Shown: in pieces, positions 1 through 8,090 of the stretch
How positions within the stretch are numbered: the first letter of the stretch is position 1
Layout of the letters: each line of letters begins with the position of its first letter
NCBI GenBank assembly: GCA_002686955.1
Contig: NYZA01000117.1
Location: 1 to 8,090 of the forward strand
DNA length: 8,090 nt
DNA from: Gemmatimonadota bacterium
Lineage (GTDB): Bacteria > GCA-2686955
Direction of reading: 5' to 3'
Translations under genes and position numbers: made by a program
The notes under the pieces: generated by a model
What the model was told of the DNA's origin: nothing
The model's input: the letters and a program-made list of their open reading frames with translations, nothing else
Database searches by the model: none

Positions 1-402
1 CGGCATCGGCGCGGTGGCGATCTTTGCTGCGAAGGAGGCGTCGAAGTAGCGGGTGATCCAGCCGCCGGAAAAGGGCAGCATCGCGGCGCGGCCCTCGATA
101 AACCAGTTGACCTCGTCGCGGTGGGCGGCGGCCAGGGCTTCGGGCGGTACGGCGCCGTGCTGGTAGGCGTCGACCCACTTCTGGAAGATGGCTTTGGCCT
201 CGGGGTGATTGATGCGGGTGCGGGTGTAGCCCTCGTCGAAGAGCGGCCAGAATCCGTCGAGGTGCAAGAGCGCCCAGGGCGGGGCGACGAGCGAGGGGTG
301 CAGGCGCCAGGAGACGCCGTATTTGCCGGTGCGCGCGTGGATTTGCCGTCCCATCTGCAGCATCTCGTCGATGGTCTGCGGGGGGCGATCGGGGTCGAGG
401 CC
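1..402 (-). pseudogene. Sugar ABC transporter extracellular solute-binding protein, internal fragment
   Basis: Read right to left from about 402, the minus strand gives [14 protein letters not shown], then [58 protein letters not shown] and TAPMP at the window edge. This order is typical of family 1 (MalE/UgpB-like) binding proteins, which capture a sugar outside the membrane and deliver it to an ABC permease: a PP-x-T-x-(D/E)-EM helix start, a TGKYG turn, and a G-(R/K)-AAM stretch followed by GGW. Homology begins at the join with the GT51 fragment, so the signal peptide and first lobe are missing; the C-terminal part lies left of the window. The sugar cannot be predicted. It reads in the same frame as the sulfatase on the other side of the GT51 piece, which may be chance. 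Confidence 0.78.
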
Positions 403-1194
403 GCGAGCTGGCGCTACTTCGGCAAGCCCTCCCGCCACCTCTCCCTGGCCGAGGCCGCGCTGATCGCCGGGCTGCCCCAGTCGCCCACGGGCCACAACCC
501 CTTCCGCGACCCCGAGCGCGCCCGGCGACGCCAGGCGGCGGTGCTGGAGCGCATGCTGGCCACCGGCGCCATCGACCGGGTCGCGTACGACCTGGCCCTG
601 GACGAGCCCCTGATCTTCCGCCCCCCCTCGGGCGAGCCCCCCGCCGCGATGCACCAAGGACTCGTCGAATCCCTGATCGACCGGACGCATCGGGTAGCAG
701 TCCCCCAAGTGCCACTTGCCGAACACGCCGGTGGCATAGCCTGCCGACCGAAGCACCTCGGCGATCGTCACCTCCGCAGGCTCCATCATCGCCCTGCCCT
801 TCCAGGTGTCGATCACGCGTGTCCGGTAGTTGTAGCGCCCCGTCAGGAGACTCGCCCGCGTCGGGGCACAGACGGGGCTGACGTAGAAGTTCGTCATCCA
901 GGCGCTGCGACCGGCCATCGCGTCGATGTGCGGCGTCTCGATCACCGGGTTCCCCGTGCAACCCAGATCCCCGTAGCCCTGGTCGTCCGTCATGATGAGG
1001 CAGATGTTCGGCGGCCGCCCCGGCTCGGCCGCCGACGCCGGCGGACCGACCGCGACGTGCATCAGGACGCCGACGGCAACGGCCCCGAGCACCGGAGCGT
1101 ACCCGGCACGTAGACGACGAGCGCCCCGCGCGTTCCGCCATCGCTTCCGTTCACCTCTTCGCGGCATGGCCGTCGCCGTGCGTACCCTTCTCAT
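1..1194 (-). CDS. Open frame fusing sulfatase N-terminus, antisense GT51 and solute-binding protein (partial, suspected chimera)
   Basis: Starting at the ATG at 1194 the minus strand has no stop down to base 1 (398 codons), and the frame leaves the window. Only its two ends look like protein: codons 1 to about 184 are a secreted sulfatase, and the codons from about base 402 downwards are the middle of an ABC sugar-binding protein. The part between is the antisense of a GT51 fragment and reads as low-complexity Gly/Ala/Arg/Gln-rich sequence. An antisense frame of GC-rich coding DNA is often open, so the lack of stops is weak evidence for a real fusion. A gene caller would report this as one CDS; I would not trust the product. 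The three parts are described separately. Confidence 0.55.
391..650 (+). pseudogene. GT51 peptidoglycan glycosyltransferase (class A PBP) fragment
   Basis: Read on the plus strand, 391 to about 640 gives [12 protein letters not shown], then [17 protein letters not shown], an [12 protein letters not shown] stretch and a [11 protein letters not shown] stretch. This is the diagnostic C-terminal third of the family 51 glycosyltransferase domain of class A penicillin-binding proteins such as PBP1a, which polymerise lipid II into glycan strands. The two catalytic Glu motifs and the membrane anchor, which lie earlier in the domain, and the transpeptidase domain are all absent. There is no start codon or ribosome site of its own: upstream in this frame is the antisense of a solute-binding protein, downstream the antisense of a sulfatase. 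It cannot be active as it stands. It is an orphan piece of about 83 codons joined at both ends to unrelated genes in the opposite direction. Confidence 0.85.
640..1194 (-). pseudogene. Sulfatase (formylglycine-dependent), N-terminal part only
   Basis: This is the first ~184 residues of a secreted sulfatase of the arylsulfatase A type, which hydrolyses sulfate esters; in planctomycetes such enzymes usually act on sulfated polysaccharides. An Arg-rich N-terminus is followed by a hydrophobic stretch (about residues 34-50) and an Ala-Ser-Ala cleavage-like site near 53-55. The metal-binding MTDDQGYGD motif follows (Asp70, Asp71). [12 protein letters not shown] carries Cys109, the residue expected to become formylglycine (C-x-P-x-R). 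GKWHLG has Lys160 and His162. Homology continues through [14 protein letters not shown] and then stops abruptly near 640, where the sequence becomes antisense GT51. Members of the family usually run to 450-600 residues, so the larger part is missing. The start at 1194 was chosen for a GGAGG (1202-1206) seven bases upstream; the ATG at 1167 has no well-placed ribosome site. The family call is secure; whether the gene is really broken in the organism is not. Confidence 0.85.
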
Positions 1195-1201
1195 TCCACT
1201 G

Positions 1202-1206
1202 CCTCC
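1202..1206 (-). promoter_or_regulatory. Shine-Dalgarno site of the sulfatase
   Basis: GGAGG on the minus strand lies seven bases before the ATG at 1194 and decides this start over the in-frame ATG at 1167. Confidence 0.65.
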
Positions 1207-1222
1207 AATCATCAACACCGTC

Positions 1223-1251
1223 AGTATGATGTCCGCAAGGGCAGCGGTCAA
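1223..1251 (-). promoter_or_regulatory. Candidate sigma70-type promoter of the sulfatase
   Basis: On the minus strand TTGACC (1251-1246) is followed after 17 bases by CATACT (1228-1223), matching the -35 consensus in 5 of 6 and the -10 in 4 of 6 positions. Transcription would start near 1216, leaving a leader of about 22 bases that holds the GGAGG. An intact promoter and ribosome site suggest that this end of the sulfatase gene is genuine. Confidence 0.45.
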
Positions 1252-1294
1252 CGAATGGCGGCAGGATCGGTGCATGAGCGCCTATGCAGAGAAA

Positions 1295-1308
1295 GGGTGG
1301 CATGGGTC
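1295..1308 (+). repeat. 14-bp dispersed repeat, copy 1
   Basis: GGGTGGCATGGGTC. A perfect inverted copy lies at 1429-1442 and a direct copy at 4017-4030. All three copies are in non-coding DNA. Confidence 0.7.
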
Positions 1309-1428
1309 CGCTCGGAACGACCCTTTCGGCGGCCGCGACGCCACGGGGCAACGCGTGACGCCTGCCCCGCGGACAGACGTTTCAGCGGACCCGTGCTTCT
1401 CCGACGACGAACGATCCCGCTCGGCGTT

Positions 1429-1442
1429 GACCCATGCCACCC
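1429..1442 (-). repeat. 14-bp dispersed repeat, copy 2 (inverted)
   Basis: GACCCATGCCACCC, the exact reverse complement of copy 1. With the next two bases (GA) it matches the complement of the 4017-4030 copy over 16 bases, and in both places further GGGTC/GACCC-like words follow nearby. Confidence 0.7.
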
Positions 1443-1510
1443 GATGGGTCGATGACCCTGCCTCCTCGGGCCGCGCAACTGCCGTCACGCACCGCCTAAC
1501 GCGCCTCTCC

Positions 1511-2756
<1,246 letters not shown>

Positions 2757-2761
2757 CCGTC

Positions 2762-2781
2762 ACCCCGCCCCTTTACGGGGT
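2762..2781. terminator. Possible bidirectional terminator between convergent genes
   Basis: ACCCCG (2762-2767) and CGGGGT (2776-2781) are a perfect 6-bp inverted repeat with an 8-base loop, lying between the bioD stop and the end of the glycosyltransferase, whose TAA is in the loop. A pyrimidine-rich stretch follows on the plus strand. The stem is short and there is no clear T run, so this is tentative. Confidence 0.35.
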
Positions 2782-3792
2782 CGCTTTCTCACTTCTCACT
2801 TTTCCCTTCTCACTTCTGCGAAGCGGCGAAGCCGCGAGCAGCCTGGACAGTCCGTACCAAAGCCAGGTCCGCGGCACGCGAGGTCGATAGGCCAGCGATC
2901 GCCGGAGCAGCGCCCGGGCCTCCCCCACCCGCCGGTGGCTCAGGCAGCTCTTACCCGCCGAGTAATGCACCTTCGCCAGACGCCGGGCGGCGATCTCGGG
3001 CGGGATCTTCGCCAACCCCTCCTGATCGCGGTAGAACTGCTCGAGAAACGCCGCCTTGCGGATCAGGGCGTCCGCCAACGACCCGCGGGAGAGCGTCCCC
3101 GGGTGACTGCGACGGCGGCAGAGGGGCTCGTCCACGTACCCGAACCGATGCTCGAGCGACAGGCGGAGCCACAGGTCGTAATCCTCGTTGGTGCTCATCG
3201 CGGCATTGAACCCGCCCGCCCGGGCAATCACGTCACGGCGGACGAGCACGCTGGGCGTGGTGATGAACGTGCTGGCAAACAGAGGTGAGGTCACGTCGCC
3301 CGCGTGCGGCCTTTTGCGATGGCGGCGGAGCAGGCGCCCCTCGCCGTCGATCGTCTGGAACCGGCAAAACGCCAGGCCGATGTCACCGTCCTCCCGCAGC
3401 CGGCCCGTCATCGCCTCGAGGAATCGCGGGGCCCACAGATCGTCGGAGTCCAGAAAACCGACAAACGCGCCCCGGGCCCGACGCAATCCGTGGTTGCGAG
3501 CGGCGGCCGGACCGGCGTTTTCCTGCCAAAAATAGCGGATGCGCTGGCTACGAGACCGCAAAAAATCTTCAGTGCCGTCCGTGGAGCCATCGTCCACCAA
3601 AATAATCTCGAAGTCCTCGAACGTCTGGGCCGCCAGGCTGTCGAGCGACGCCGGGAGGAAGCCCACCCGGTTGTAGGCGGGCATGATCACGCTGACCGCA
3701 GGGGCGGCCTCCAGCCCCGCGGCAGGGGCGGCCGGAACAACAGGGTCGCGACTCGGCGCCGAGACCGGGGCTGGCACCTCAAAACCGTCCAT
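2773..3792 (-). CDS. Family 2 glycosyltransferase
   Basis: A 339-residue cytoplasmic GT2 (GT-A fold) enzyme that moves a sugar from a nucleotide-sugar onto an acceptor, probably in surface polysaccharide or glycolipid synthesis. After a Pro/Ala-rich N-terminus (1-31) comes VSVIMPAYNR (33-42), then DDGSTDGT (67-74, nucleotide binding), ENAGPAAARNHG (91-102), the metal-binding DSDD (115-118) and NEDYDLWLR with the likely catalytic Glu203-Asp204. The last ~80 residues have an Arg-rich helical pattern resembling a TPR tail, seen in some GT2 enzymes. No membrane helix is visible. The frame is open back to 4203, but those residues are low-complexity and overlap a promoter, a hairpin and a repeat; the ATG at 3792 has GGAAG five bases upstream and gives a normal length. 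The extreme C-terminus is encoded by a 7-bp tandem repeat. The gene stands alone, convergent with bioD and divergent from the ABC operon. Acceptor and sugar are unknown. Confidence 0.88.
   Translation of the reverse strand: MDGFEVPAPVSAPSRDPVVPAAPAAGLEAAPAVSVIMPAYNRVGFLPASLDSLAAQTFEDFEIILVDDGSTDGTEDFLRSRSQRIRYFWQENAGPAAARNHGLRRARGAFVGFLDSDDLWAPRFLEAMTGRLREDGDIGLAFCRFQTIDGEGRLLRRHRKRPHAGDVTSPLFASTFITTPSVLVRRDVIARAGGFNAAMSTNEDYDLWLRLSLEHRFGYVDEPLCRRRSHPGTLSRGSLADALIRKAAFLEQFYRDQEGLAKIPPEIAARRLAKVHYSAGKSCLSHRRVGEARALLRRSLAYRPRVPRTWLWYGLSRLLAASPLRRSEKGKVRSEKATP
2786..2820. repeat. Degenerate 7-bp tandem repeat at the glycosyltransferase 3' end
   Basis: Five consecutive 7-base units on the plus strand: TTCTCAC, TTCTCAC, TTTTCCC, TTCTCAC, TTCTGCG. 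Read on the minus strand they encode the C-terminal RRSEKGKVRSEK residues of the glycosyltransferase. Because 7 is not a multiple of 3, the peptide repeat appears only every three units. It looks like a non-coding microsatellite that the gene end runs into. Confidence 0.7.
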
Positions 3793-3924
3793 TCGTACTT
3801 CCGAGTAATGCGGGAGAACGCAGACCGACCCAGCAGCCGATCCGGCCCGACCGAAGATCGTTGGGCCGAACCGCCTCACGCCGATCGCGCCCGTCGGCAC
3901 GCCGTCAGCTCGGCCAAAGGGGGC

Positions 3925-3952
3925 ATTATGCGCATCGACCGGGCCCAGGCAA
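3925..3952 (-). promoter_or_regulatory. Candidate promoter of the glycosyltransferase
   Basis: On the minus strand TTGCCT (3952-3947), a 16-base spacer and CATAAT (3930-3925) match the sigma70 hexamers in 4 and 5 of 6 positions. It would give a leader of about 126 bases. Confidence 0.4.
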
Positions 3953-3975
3953 CCCCCCCGCATCCGCCGTCCCCT

Positions 3976-3999
3976 GGACCGAGAATCCTTTCTCGGTCC
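3976..3999. other. Perfect 10-bp hairpin between divergent promoters
   Basis: GGACCGAGAA (3976-3985), the loop TCCT, then TTCTCGGTCC (3990-3999). It lies outside both predicted transcripts, between the two promoters, with no T run, so a terminator is not the obvious reading. It could be an operator for a dimeric regulator, a REP-like palindrome, or the terminator of an unrecognised short transcript. Confidence 0.6.
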
Positions 4000-4016
4000 G
4001 CCCATCGTGCCGGGTC

Positions 4017-4030
4017 GGGTGGCATGGGTC
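4017..4030 (+). repeat. 14-bp dispersed repeat, copy 3
   Basis: GGGTGGCATGGGTC, identical to the copy at 1295-1308 and inverted relative to 1429-1442. It lies about 35 bases upstream of the strong ABC-operon promoter. Confidence 0.7.
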
Positions 4031-4064
4031 ATCGCCGAGACGGATGGGTCCGTGGTCGGAGGAC

Positions 4065-4092
4065 TTGACAACCCGCCCGGCCTGTGAATAAT
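4065..4092 (+). promoter_or_regulatory. Strong sigma70-type promoter of the ABC operon
   Basis: A perfect TTGACA (4065-4070), 16 bases, then AATAAT (4087-4092, 5 of 6) with TGTG just before it, like an extended -10. This AT-rich patch stands out in GC-rich DNA. Transcription would start near 4099. Confidence 0.65.
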
Positions 4093-4249
4093 CTCCTCCT
4101 CTGAACGTGCCGGGGCCCGACGGCGGCCCGCCGGGCAGGACGCGTGGCCTGGGGATAAAGGTCTCGCGCTCCCCGGCTCGCCATGGATGCCGTAGGCCGG
4201 CATGCCGGGTTCTAAAACCCTATTGTTTGGGCGCGGACCACCACGGACG

Positions 4250-4264
4250 GTGAGATCCTCTCAC
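4250..4264 (+). promoter_or_regulatory. Leader hairpin upstream of the ABC ATPase
   Basis: GTGAGA (4250-4255), the loop TCC, then TCTCAC (4259-4264): a perfect 6-bp stem in the 5' leader, 43 bases before the start codon. It may affect stability or translation; no riboswitch family was recognised. Confidence 0.35.
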
Positions 4265-4307
4265 GCGTTGTACGGTGGGCTCCTAGGTCGAAAGGAACGG
4301 CAAACCC

Positions 4308-5261
4308 ATGATTGCGGTGCGAAACTTGACCAAGGCCTTCGGGGCCCACCTGGCGGTGGACAACGTCTCGTTCACCGTCCAGGAGGGCGAAATCGTCGGC
4401 TTCCTCGGCCCCAACGGGGCGGGCAAGAGCACGACCATGCGGATCCTCACCGGGTTCATGCCCGCCACCGGCGGGACCGCCTCGGTCGCGGGATTCGACG
4501 TCTTCAGCCAATCCATCGAGGTGCGACGCCGCATCGGCTACCTCCCCGAGGGCAACCCGCTCTATCCCGAGATGAGGGTCCGCGAATACCTGAATTTCCG
4601 CGGCAAACTCCGGGGGATGGGCCGGCCCGAGCGGGCGAAGGGCATCGAGAGCGTCGCCAAACGCTGCTGGCTGGGCGAATTCATCGATCGCCCCATCGGG
4701 CAGTTGTCCAAGGGCATGAAACAGCGGGTCGGCCTGGCCGACGCCCTCTTGCACGACCCCGACGTCCTCATCCTCGACGAGCCCACCATCGGGCTCGACC
4801 CGACCCAGATCCGCGAGACCCGTCGCCTCATCTCCGACCTCGCCAAGCGGCACACCATCCTGCTCAGCTCGCACATCCTGCCCGAGGTCGAGGCCGTCTG
4901 TCAGCGGACGATCATCATCGCCGGCGGCAAGATCAGGGCCAGCGGGTCGATCAGCGAGGTGCGGGATCGCATCAAGGGCAGCTCCGGCCTGATCGCCGAG
5001 ATCCGCGGACCGCAGGATCAAGTGACCGCGGCGATCCGGCAGCTCGGCGGCGTCCAGAAGGTGGACGTCTCGGGGGCGGACGGCTGGAATCGGCTGCGGA
5101 TCACCAGCCACGAGGGCAAGGACGTCCGCGAGGAGGTGGCGGCCCTGGCGGCCAAGAGCGGTTGGGCCCTTCGCGAGTTACGGCTCGAGGTGGGCAGTCT
5201 CGAGGAATTCTTCGTGCAGATCACGGCCCAGGCCGCAGCGACCAAGACCGCCGCCGCCTAG
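4308..5261 (+). CDS. ABC transporter ATP-binding protein, GldA-like (ABC-2 type)
   Basis: This 317-residue nucleotide-binding subunit hydrolyses ATP on the cytoplasmic side to drive the permease encoded next to it. Walker A is GPNGAGKST (residues 34-42). The Q-loop position reads YLPEGNPLYPEM, with Glu81 in place of Gln, as is common in the GldA/NatA-type branch. The signature is LSKGMKQR (133-140), Walker B is VLILDEP (153-159) with Glu158 as catalytic base, the D-loop is GLDP (162-165), and the switch His is His189 in SSHIL. Residues from about 225 form the C-terminal extension typical of exporter-type ATPases, ending with EEFFVQIT and an Ala-rich tail. The ATG at 4308 has AAAGGA eleven bases upstream, a rather wide spacing. 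It is the first gene of a three-gene operon with a strong promoter about 210 bases upstream. GldA belongs to Bacteroidetes gliding, but similar sets occur widely in non-gliding bacteria, so the name implies family only and the substrate is unknown. Confidence 0.92.
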   Translation: MIAVRNLTKAFGAHLAVDNVSFTVQEGEIVGFLGPNGAGKSTTMRILTGFMPATGGTASVAGFDVFSQSIEVRRRIGYLPEGNPLYPEMRVREYLNFRGKLRGMGRPERAKGIESVAKRCWLGEFIDRPIGQLSKGMKQRVGLADALLHDPDVLILDEPTIGLDPTQIRETRRLISDLAKRHTILLSSHILPEVEAVCQRTIIIAGGKIRASGSISEVRDRIKGSSGLIAEIRGPQDQVTAAIRQLGGVQKVDVSGADGWNRLRITSHEGKDVREEVAALAAKSGWALRELRLEVGSLEEFFVQITAQAAATKTAAA

Positions 5262-5275
5262 ACCGATCGCGTGGT

Positions 5276-5302
5276 GCCCGGGCCCCGATTCGGGCCGCGG
5301 GC
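5276..5302 (+). promoter_or_regulatory. GC-rich intercistronic hairpin
   Basis: GCCCGGGCCC (5276-5285), the loop CGATTC, then GGGCC-G-CGGGC (5292-5302): a 10-bp stem with one bulged G, starting 14 bases after the ATPase stop. No T run follows and the operon continues, so it may be an RNA processing or stabilising element, or a partial attenuator setting ATPase to permease ratios. Confidence 0.5.
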
Positions 5303-5358
5303 GGAACGACCCTGGACCGGTTGGGATCACGAGCCCAGTAACCTGAGGATTGAACACG

Positions 5359-6186
5359 ATGTCGGCAGAGACACCCGTCAAAACGGCCCCCGTCCCCCAA
5401 GGGGTGACGCGGTCCGAACGTGCCGTGCTCGACGACCGCGAATCCGGAGCCTCCGGAACGAAGCCCTTCGCGGCGATCGCAGCCATCACGCAACGCGAAC
5501 TCCAGTCCACCTTCTACTCCCCCATCGCCTACGTGGTCGGTTGCATTTTCCTGCTCGTCAGCGGGTGGTTCTTCGTCTCCCAGACGCTCACCCCGGGCCA
5601 CGAGGCGAGCATGAGACCCCTGTTCGAGTTGATGGCCAAGGTTCTCGTCTTCGCCTTGCCGATCCTGACCATGCGGGCCATCGCCGACGAGTTCGCCAGC
5701 GGGGCGATCGAGACACTCATGACCGCCCCCGTGAGCGACACCAGCGTCGTGCTCGGCAAGTTCATGGGCGTCCTGGCGTTCTATGTCGCCCTCCTCGCGA
5801 CCACCGTGCTGCACTGGATCCTCCTCGCCGCCTACACCGACCCCATGGCCAGCGTGGTGATCGTCGGCTACGTGGGGATGCTCCTGCTGGGGGCGTTGTT
5901 CATCTCCATCGGGATCTTCGCCAGTTGTTGCACGCGGTATCAGTTGCTGGCCGCGATCATCGCGATGACCCTCCTCGCCGTCCTGACGCTCCTCGCGAAT
6001 TACGGGGCGGAGTACCTCGAACAGGAATCATTGCGGGCCGTCTGTTCCTACGTCAACGTGTTCGGCCATTTCAGCAATTTCACCAAGGGCATCATTGATT
6101 CGGCAAGCCTGATCTTCTTCGTTACCGGTACGGCGTTTTTCTTGTTCCTGGCGGTCAAAGTTCTGGAGTCTCGACGATGGCGGTAG
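5359..6186 (+). CDS. ABC-2 type permease, GldF-like
   Basis: A 275-residue integral inner-membrane protein that would form the transmembrane channel of the system driven by the preceding ATPase. An unusually long hydrophilic N-terminus (1-45) precedes the ABC-2 motif RELQSTFYSPIAYVVG (46-61). Six hydrophobic segments are visible at about 56-75, 88-105, 135-157, 166-190, 194-215 and 250-269. Between the second and third lies MRAIADEFASGAIETLMTAPVSD (105-127), the conserved cytoplasmic loop of GldF/NosY-like permeases that contacts the ATPase. The ATG at 5359 has GAGGA ten bases upstream and was preferred to the TTG at 5350. It is separated from the ATPase by 97 bases containing a stable hairpin, and its last ten bases overlap the next gene. 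The family call is firm; the transported substrate is not predictable. Confidence 0.9.
   Translation: MSAETPVKTAPVPQGVTRSERAVLDDRESGASGTKPFAAIAAITQRELQSTFYSPIAYVVGCIFLLVSGWFFVSQTLTPGHEASMRPLFELMAKVLVFALPILTMRAIADEFASGAIETLMTAPVSDTSVVLGKFMGVLAFYVALLATTVLHWILLAAYTDPMASVVIVGYVGMLLLGALFISIGIFASCCTRYQLLAAIIAMTLLAVLTLLANYGAEYLEQESLRAVCSYVNVFGHFSNFTKGIIDSASLIFFVTGTAFFLFLAVKVLESRRWR
6165..6168 (+). promoter_or_regulatory. Shine-Dalgarno site of the GldG-like gene inside the permease
   Basis: GGAG lies eight bases before the ATG at 6177, within the last codons of the permease; this supports the overlapping start and translational coupling. Confidence 0.6.
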
Positions 6187-8090
6187 AGAGTCAATCCAAA
6201 CCGACCGGGGCCGCGGGGCGTCGCTGGTTCTTCGGGGCCAACGTCTCACTGGTCATCCTGCTCGCCGCGGGAATCACGGCCGCAGTCAACTACGCCGGCC
6301 AACGCGAAAAGGCCCACTACCGGCGTGACGTGGCCGGCGGCTTCGCCGCTCACCGGATCTCCGAACGCACAAAGAAGATCTGCGAGCAGGTCCGCAAGGA
6401 CAGCCCCGACGCCAAGATCCGCATCAGCACCGTCTACGCCTCCGAGGAAGTGGGGATGGATCGCAAGGACTATTTCCCGCGATTGCGGGATCTGTGCGAG
6501 GAGATCCGGCAATTCGACCGGGCGATCGAGGTCGAGCACCTGCACAGCCCCGAACAGCGACTCGCGCTCCGCGAGCGCGTCCAGGGCAAGTTCGGAACCG
6601 CGAGCGAGGCCTACAATCAGGTCATCGCCCAGGCCAAGACAATCTGGTCGGACTTCGACCAAGCCGTCAGCCCGGCGCGACAGGAGATCGTCGGCCTCAT
6701 CGAGAACGACAAGTGGGTCAGCGGTTTCTCGCCGCTCGCCACCATCGCCAACAACCTGGACAAACACCTCAAGGCCATCGAGGAGACCCGGCGTGAAGTC
6801 GACGACCTGATCCACGCCGAGGGCATTCCTCAGTTCGGGGAAGCCAACACCAAGATCAAGGCGCTCAACGACGCGATCACCCAGGATCTCGAAAACGCCC
6901 AGGAGGACTTCAAGCAGTGGAACGGCCTGGTGGAGCTGCTGTCCAATCCGGACGCGGCCTTCGCCACCCAAACCAAAGACGCCGCCATCGGTCTGATCGC
7001 CCAGGTGGCCCGGCTCCGGCAGATCATCGGCGACCCCAAGGACGAGTCGGTCCCCGACGATCCCAAGAAGGTCATCCAGGACTTTACCAAGGCGGCCCAA
7101 CAGCTCGCGGCCGACATGATGGACGAGTACGACCGCGTCAACGGGTTCGTCAAGGCCAACCCGGCCCTCGCCCAGCACCCGCTCTGGCAGGTCCGCGTCC
7201 AGCAGGGGATCTTCGCGACCCGCGAGAGCCTGCCCTGGTTGTTGGGGAGCACCGCCGGATCGTTGAGCGGCACGACGCAGCGGCTTCGCCAGGTGCTGGC
7301 CGGTGATCAGCCCGAGGACATCCTCCAGAACTTCGTCCGCCAGTTGCGCGGCATGGCCGCCGACCAGCTCGGCAACGTCAATCTCTGGGCCGCCAACGTC
7401 AACAAAGTCCTCGAGGACGGCGCGAGAATCGACCCCGAGAGCCGGGCATTCATCGCCCGCGGCAGTCAGGGCGAGTTGTTCAAGAGCGTGCTCGATCCGC
7501 TCGGGGAGCTCGAGACCAAGATCGGCGATCTGCCCGAATTGGATCTCGACGAGATCGCCCGCGGCTTGCAGCAAGAGAACATCGTCGTGATCGAGAACGA
7601 CGGGAAGGTCGAAGTGGTGAGCTTCGACGACGTCTGGCCCTACGCCGATCCGACGGCCCCGCAGTTCGGGGACGACAACGAGCGGCGGCGGGTGTTCGAC
7701 GGAGACAGCGCGATCTCGGGCGGGCTCCTGTCGACCCAAGCGGAAACGCCGTTCGGCACGGTAATCCTCGTCTCCTACGAGACCCGTCCCGCCAACCCGA
7801 TGATGGGCGGCGGGGGCACCTCCCCGATTCCGCCCTCGCGATTGACCGTGCTGCGGGACAAGCTCGAGCAGGCCAACTTCAAGATCAAGGAATGGAACCT
7901 CGGGGGCGAGGGTGAGGCCGCCGCCAAACCCGAGCCGGAGGAGGGCACCAAGCCCATTTACGTGCTCCTCCCGCCGGGCAGGACGCAACAGAACCCGTTC
8001 ATGCGGCAACAGCAGCCGCCCAAGAACTTCGGGCCGCCCGAACTCCAAAAGATCAACGACGCCCTCGCCGACGGTGGGCGGGCGCTCTTC
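6177..8090 (+). CDS. GldG-like ABC auxiliary protein with long helical insertion (partial)
   Basis: The first 638 codons of a protein that continues past the window. Its ATG overlaps the permease stop by 10 bases. Residues 1-16 are polar and basic, 18-40 form one transmembrane anchor, and the rest should lie outside the cytoplasm. Residues 78-125 (AKIRISTVYASEEVG, then YFPRLRDLCEEI and IEVEHLHSP) match the start of the GldG/ABC_transp_aux fold, with alternating strands and helices. Residues ~128-465 are a long, charged, mainly helical stretch not usual in GldG. The fold seems to resume at NIVVIENDGKVEVVSFDDV (468-486), FDGDSAISGGLLS (507-519), VILVSYE, RLTVLRDKLEQANFKIKEW, KPIYVLLPPG and INDALADGGRALF at the edge, echoing the 'yl..GGr.l.l' strand of GldG. 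A Gly/Pro-rich MMGGGG stretch near 542 and a Pro/Gln stretch near 610-620 look like linkers. A second C-terminal membrane helix is expected beyond the window. The family call rests on operon context and motif order; the role of the subunit is unknown. Confidence 0.82.
   Translation, partial: MAVESQSKPTGAAGRRWFFGANVSLVILLAAGITAAVNYAGQREKAHYRRDVAGGFAAHRISERTKKICEQVRKDSPDAKIRISTVYASEEVGMDRKDYFPRLRDLCEEIRQFDRAIEVEHLHSPEQRLALRERVQGKFGTASEAYNQVIAQAKTIWSDFDQAVSPARQEIVGLIENDKWVSGFSPLATIANNLDKHLKAIEETRREVDDLIHAEGIPQFGEANTKIKALNDAITQDLENAQEDFKQWNGLVELLSNPDAAFATQTKDAAIGLIAQVARLRQIIGDPKDESVPDDPKKVIQDFTKAAQQLAADMMDEYDRVNGFVKANPALAQHPLWQVRVQQGIFATRESLPWLLGSTAGSLSGTTQRLRQVLAGDQPEDILQNFVRQLRGMAADQLGNVNLWAANVNKVLEDGARIDPESRAFIARGSQGELFKSVLDPLGELETKIGDLPELDLDEIARGLQQENIVVIENDGKVEVVSFDDVWPYADPTAPQFGDDNERRRVFDGDSAISGGLLSTQAETPFGTVILVSYETRPANPMMGGGGTSPIPPSRLTVLRDKLEQANFKIKEWNLGGEGEAAAKPEPEEGTKPIYVLLPPGRTQQNPFMRQQQPPKNFGPPELQKINDALADGGRALF

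Follow-up and report, generated by a model that had tools for sequence, protein, structure and literature searches.

The outermost 651 bases of contig C117 raise the question of whether three gene pieces found there in close succession ever stood together in a genome, or were joined on the way from DNA to assembly. The window analyzed is the entire contig of 8,090 bp, from an assembly (bin) of 4.28 Mb in 270 contigs with a completeness of 84.5%, the phylum of which is represented by two genomes only in the searched set. The bin is rich in sulfatases: a single query from the C-terminal part of a sulfatase matched 25 times.

Three gene pieces cut within their domains

The initial annotation had described a plus-strand piece of a GT51 domain, the glycosyltransferase domain of class A PBPs, lying between a truncated solute-binding protein (SBP) gene that ends at about 402 and a truncated sulfatase gene that ends at about 640, both on the minus strand. 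Pfam and profiles built from relatives agreed with this description (Table 1).

Table 1. Features of contig C117 with the coordinates of the three pieces and of their joins.
Feature	Position	Strand	Evidence or content
ABC-transporter solute-binding protein fragment	1-402	minus	Pfam, relatives' profile, tblastn
Open frame through all three pieces (425 aa)	1-1275	minus	ORF list
Left join, 12-bp word GGGGTCGAGGCC	391-402		GVEA (GT51, plus) and GLDP (SBP, minus)
GT51 (class A PBP glycosyltransferase) domain, C-terminal third and a few residues beyond	391 to about 648 (Pfam span 391-651)	plus	PF00912
Right join, 12-bp C/G-only word CCCCCCGCCGCG	637-648		PPAA (GT51, plus) and RGGG (sulfatase, minus)
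Sulfatase, N-terminal part	637-1275	minus	PF00884 (2.5e-22, profile 1-103 of 301)
NikR-type regulator	1576-1992		ORFs and Pfam
BioD-like	2025-2756		AAA_26 Pfam match
Family 2 glycosyltransferase		minus	ORFs and Pfam
ABC ATPase	4308-5261		ORFs and Pfam
ABC-2 permease	5350-6186		ORFs and Pfam
Long protein, no Pfam match	6177-8090		ORFs and Pfam

The SBP piece comprises 134 codons from an internal part of the gene and runs off the contig end. It matched PF13416 (SBP_bac_8; 5.6e-5) and PF01547 (2e-4), in both cases under the gathering cut-off of the model, and it scored 85.7 bits against a profile of SBP relatives, the match stopping at 402-405. In tblastn searches the piece aligned over its whole length, from residue 1 onward, with annotated sugar ABC substrate-binding proteins.

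The GT51 piece is inverted relative to both neighbors and is a clear member of its family, matching PF00912 (Transgly) at 1.2e-14 (54.6 bits; the cut-off is 27). The domain is incomplete, the match covering positions 123-177 (Pfam) or 119-177 (family search) of the 178 in the profile. The piece has neither a start nor a stop, and its catalytic N-terminal part is absent, which bears out the earlier remark that the catalytic residues are missing; the catalytic glutamates of GT51 lie at profile positions before 119. The sulfatase piece is likewise short of a full-length domain, covering about the first third, and its translation contains the CxPxR formylglycine (active-site) motif as CAPTR. Its identity to intact sulfatases in other genomes was 62% at most. 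The three genes are unrelated to one another, and each is cut mid-domain. Neither stops nor frameshifts were found in the three pieces, so that decay was not seen, and in the ORF and Pfam data the joins showed neither a transposase-like nor a repeat boundary.

One interpretation of the open frames is that they are functional, with the plus strand encoding a GT51-like small protein or the minus strand a 425-aa fusion of sulfatase and SBP. Both frames are open, but at 77% GC this is to be expected. A GT51 protein of this kind would lack every profile position before 119, including the catalytic glutamates, and the minus frame between bases 403 and 636 is simply GT51 read antisense. A functional product of either kind is scarcely credible.

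Beyond this end, C117 carries ordinary genes (Table 1), among which the name BioD is our own reading of the AAA_26 match. The last of them encodes 638 residues, lies downstream of the ABC ATPase and permease genes and is open at the contig end. A Pfam search with this protein returned zero matches; it is probably GldG-like or an auxiliary part of the transporter.

Two joins at short shared words

The breakpoints were located from column-wise scores of each reading against its relatives (n = 8 for SBP and n = 94 for GT51). They were picked after the data had been seen, and the join scores are therefore guides and not strict tests. At the left join the SBP reading matches the relatives up to 402, where G is present in 8/8, and breaks beyond it, with R at 405 (A in 7/8 relatives) and A at 414 (F in 8/8). 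The GT51 reading begins at 391; the I at 388 occurs in 1 of the 94 relatives, and codons 379-390 score -2.3 bits. The 12 bases at 391-402 had been said to make sense in both genes, and this proved to be the case, as the SBP fit extends through 402 and GVEA reaches 13.9 bits in the GT51 columns, a score equaled or exceeded by 13 of 575,708 words of a genome sample (2.3e-5). This 12-bp dual-reading overlap is statistically solid. A longer left overlap of 21 bp (382-402) would have pointed to a k=21 graph join, but it was rejected: the GT51 reading does not hold at 388, given the rarity of I at that position and the score below zero for 379-390.

At the right join the sulfatase reading holds to 637 (GGG) and then gives L-A-R where the relatives have I/V-G-Q. 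The GT51 reading holds to about 648 (A in 76/94) and breaks at 649, where M is found in 0/94 relatives and P in 68/94. A C/G-rich word at about 637-651 had been proposed to fit both genes. The overlap stood for 637-648; it did not extend past the GT51 failure at 649, and on the GT51 side it amounts to 3.7 bits (p ~0.013) in sequence of low complexity. Because the word consists of C and G only and the GT51 score is modest, the right overlap is less certain than the left, and a microhomology at this join is plausible, weaker and unproven. A weak alignment to one PBP appeared to continue GT51 past 651; it was rejected because the opposite strand there encodes conserved sulfatase sequence.

At these joins gene, strand and composition change abruptly at no biological boundary, as in a chimera. 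The precise breakpoints with short shared words lend support to the three origins that the initial annotation had listed, namely template switching in amplified DNA, a short-overlap assembly error and microhomology-mediated rearrangement.

The middle piece is foreign in composition

The composition of the GT51 piece is foreign to the rest of C117. Its GC content is 76.6%; when 20 other contigs of the bin were sampled (288 kb), 0.035% of 235-bp windows reached that value. The third position is G or C in 77 of the 78 codons of the piece (GC3 of 98.7%). GC3 of the other C117 genes is 81-91.5%, and 0 of 1,652 windows of equal length reached the value of the GT51 piece. The SBP piece, with a GC3 of 0.90, shows no departure from the contig.

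C117 itself is probably mis-binned, because it is a compositional outlier and its permease does not favor the genome of the same family. After removal of the chimeric end, the mean tetranucleotide z-score correlation of C117 with the other contigs was 0.27, against 0.55 +/- 0.07 for equal-length chunks, of which 1 in 30 was about as low. The corresponding frequency distance was 0.245 against 0.137 +/- 0.025 (maximum 0.200), and positions 1201-8090 were a GC3 outlier as well when set against the 20 other contigs. For the permease, many unrelated families gave better matches than G001, the sole same-family genome compared, while for a control gene from contig C116 the best match was clearly G001. 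Mis-binning does not affect the difference in composition between the GT51 piece and the rest of C117.

The word GGTGGCATGGGT is present in three intergenic copies in C117 (at 1296, at 1430 on the minus strand and at 4018) and was absent from 288 kb of sequence from the bin's other contigs. Around its copies, the segments at about 1399-1444 and 4015-4061 form a 46-bp inverted pair with 85% identity. The word resembles an intergenic repeat dispersed through the true source genome of C117.

Searches for copies, a donor and further chimeras

The earlier suggestion that each piece be sought separately as an intact gene in the same genome was followed. No second copy of any piece was found elsewhere in the bin at the DNA level, the GT51 family search of the bin returned the C117 fragment only, and a query for the sulfatase remainder, taken from the C-terminal part of its best relative, gave only paralogues of 30% identity in the bin. 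These absences are weak evidence, because the bin is 84.5% complete and C117 may not belong to it.

The pieces were also sought one by one in 145 genomes, which with few exceptions belong to other families. There the open frames of GT51 relatives are far longer, usually as long as a complete PBP, and most of the best sulfatase relatives occupy full-length frames. A second instance of the SBP/GT51/sulfatase arrangement was not found in these genomes. Among 85,000 species genomes no close relative that could mark the GT51 donor was found: the best-scoring match had 55% identity, the highest identity was 64% over part of the piece, and the matches came from several phyla. A search of plasmid DNA with the junction recovered only GT51-side sequence, at ~70% identity.

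A coding-frame Viterbi scan for further chimeras, run on 20 other contigs of the bin, gave no clear second case. Its sole candidate, at the end of C116, was dismissed on inspection of the translations by eye, which showed ordinary genes. The scan called 1-1089 of the window one minus-strand segment, and since it thereby missed the known case in C117 it is uninformative either way.

Origin of the arrangement

The left end of C117 is very probably an artefactual chimera, and most likely one that joins pieces of different organisms. Two shared words of about 12 bp would have linked a fragment of an SBP gene, a 250-bp stretch of GT51 originating in a genome of very high GC content, and the genuine contig, which starts with the sulfatase gene. 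In silico, spurious short overlaps or a chimeric read could have let the assembler extend a contig end of low coverage; in vitro, template switching in amplified DNA could have had the same outcome. The chimera is the best fit because all three pieces are cut mid-domain, the two joins lie at breakpoints ~250 bp apart, the middle piece is foreign, the frames are undecayed and the whole lies at the contig end. We infer that no living cell carries this arrangement.

It could also be that the rearrangement is real and recent, a deletion having joined the sulfatase and SBP genes and captured a 250-bp foreign GT51 piece at microhomologies, with all three left as dead remnants. Such an event is compatible with the sequence taken alone; the short shared words at both joins would fit microhomology-mediated repair too, and the foreign composition of the insert would fit captured exogenous DNA. 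However, two joins fall within 250 bp and none of the pieces has decayed, the arrangement is without a second instance in the 145 genomes, and the site is a contig end. The position of the joins at the very end of the contig and the foreign composition of the middle piece favor an artefact, and a real rearrangement is improbable. Marginally less probable again is its most specific form, in which a living bacterium, in losing the interval between sulfatase and SBP, took up the 250-bp piece of a foreign PBP gene at 12-bp microhomologies, the result being fresh and undecayed; if true, this would exemplify the illegitimate capture of short stretches of foreign DNA.

With an artefactual chimera as the preferred explanation, the first ~650 bases of C117 should be trimmed and not interpreted. 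The case illustrates cleanly how a chimeric contig end can keep its frame: the minus strand has no stop between 1275 and 1, and gene callers could therefore report a spurious 425-aa sulfatase-SBP fusion. Family scans could credit a poorly sampled lineage with a false class A PBP: the GT51 match is the only one in the bin, and a statement that this bin 'has class A PBPs' would therefore rest on the artefact.

Comparison with known systems

Bacteria can capture short pieces of foreign DNA illegitimately or through microhomology. The end of C117 resembles such capture in being a short foreign patch bounded by microhomology, but differs from it in that the flanking genes are unlike each other, the patch is found at a contig end only and there is no independent example.

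Inverted joins at matches of 2-21 nt were reported from amplified DNA in a study in which most chimeras connected segments <10 kb apart in one genome (Lasken and Stockwell, PMC1855051). An MDA template-switching chimera within a single genome, formed when a neighboring segment was inverted at a short complementary word, would be a special case of the artefact. The middle piece of C117 is indeed inverted against both neighbors and its 12-bp overlaps fall within the published range, the second of them being statistically weak. In contrast to the published chimeras, the middle piece seems to derive from another genome; its GC3 differs strongly from that of the contig. The bin also holds no other GT51 gene, although the membership of C117 in the bin is itself doubtful. 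A chimera within one genome is unlikely, if somewhat less so than a real rearrangement.

For metagenome assemblies, local assembly errors and, rarely, chimeric scaffolds across organisms have been described (Chen et al., PMC7111523). C117 differs from those chimeric ends in having two successive joins and not one, and in being recognized here from sequence alone; like them, it joins unrelated sources with an abrupt change of gene and composition, at the point where assembly stopped.
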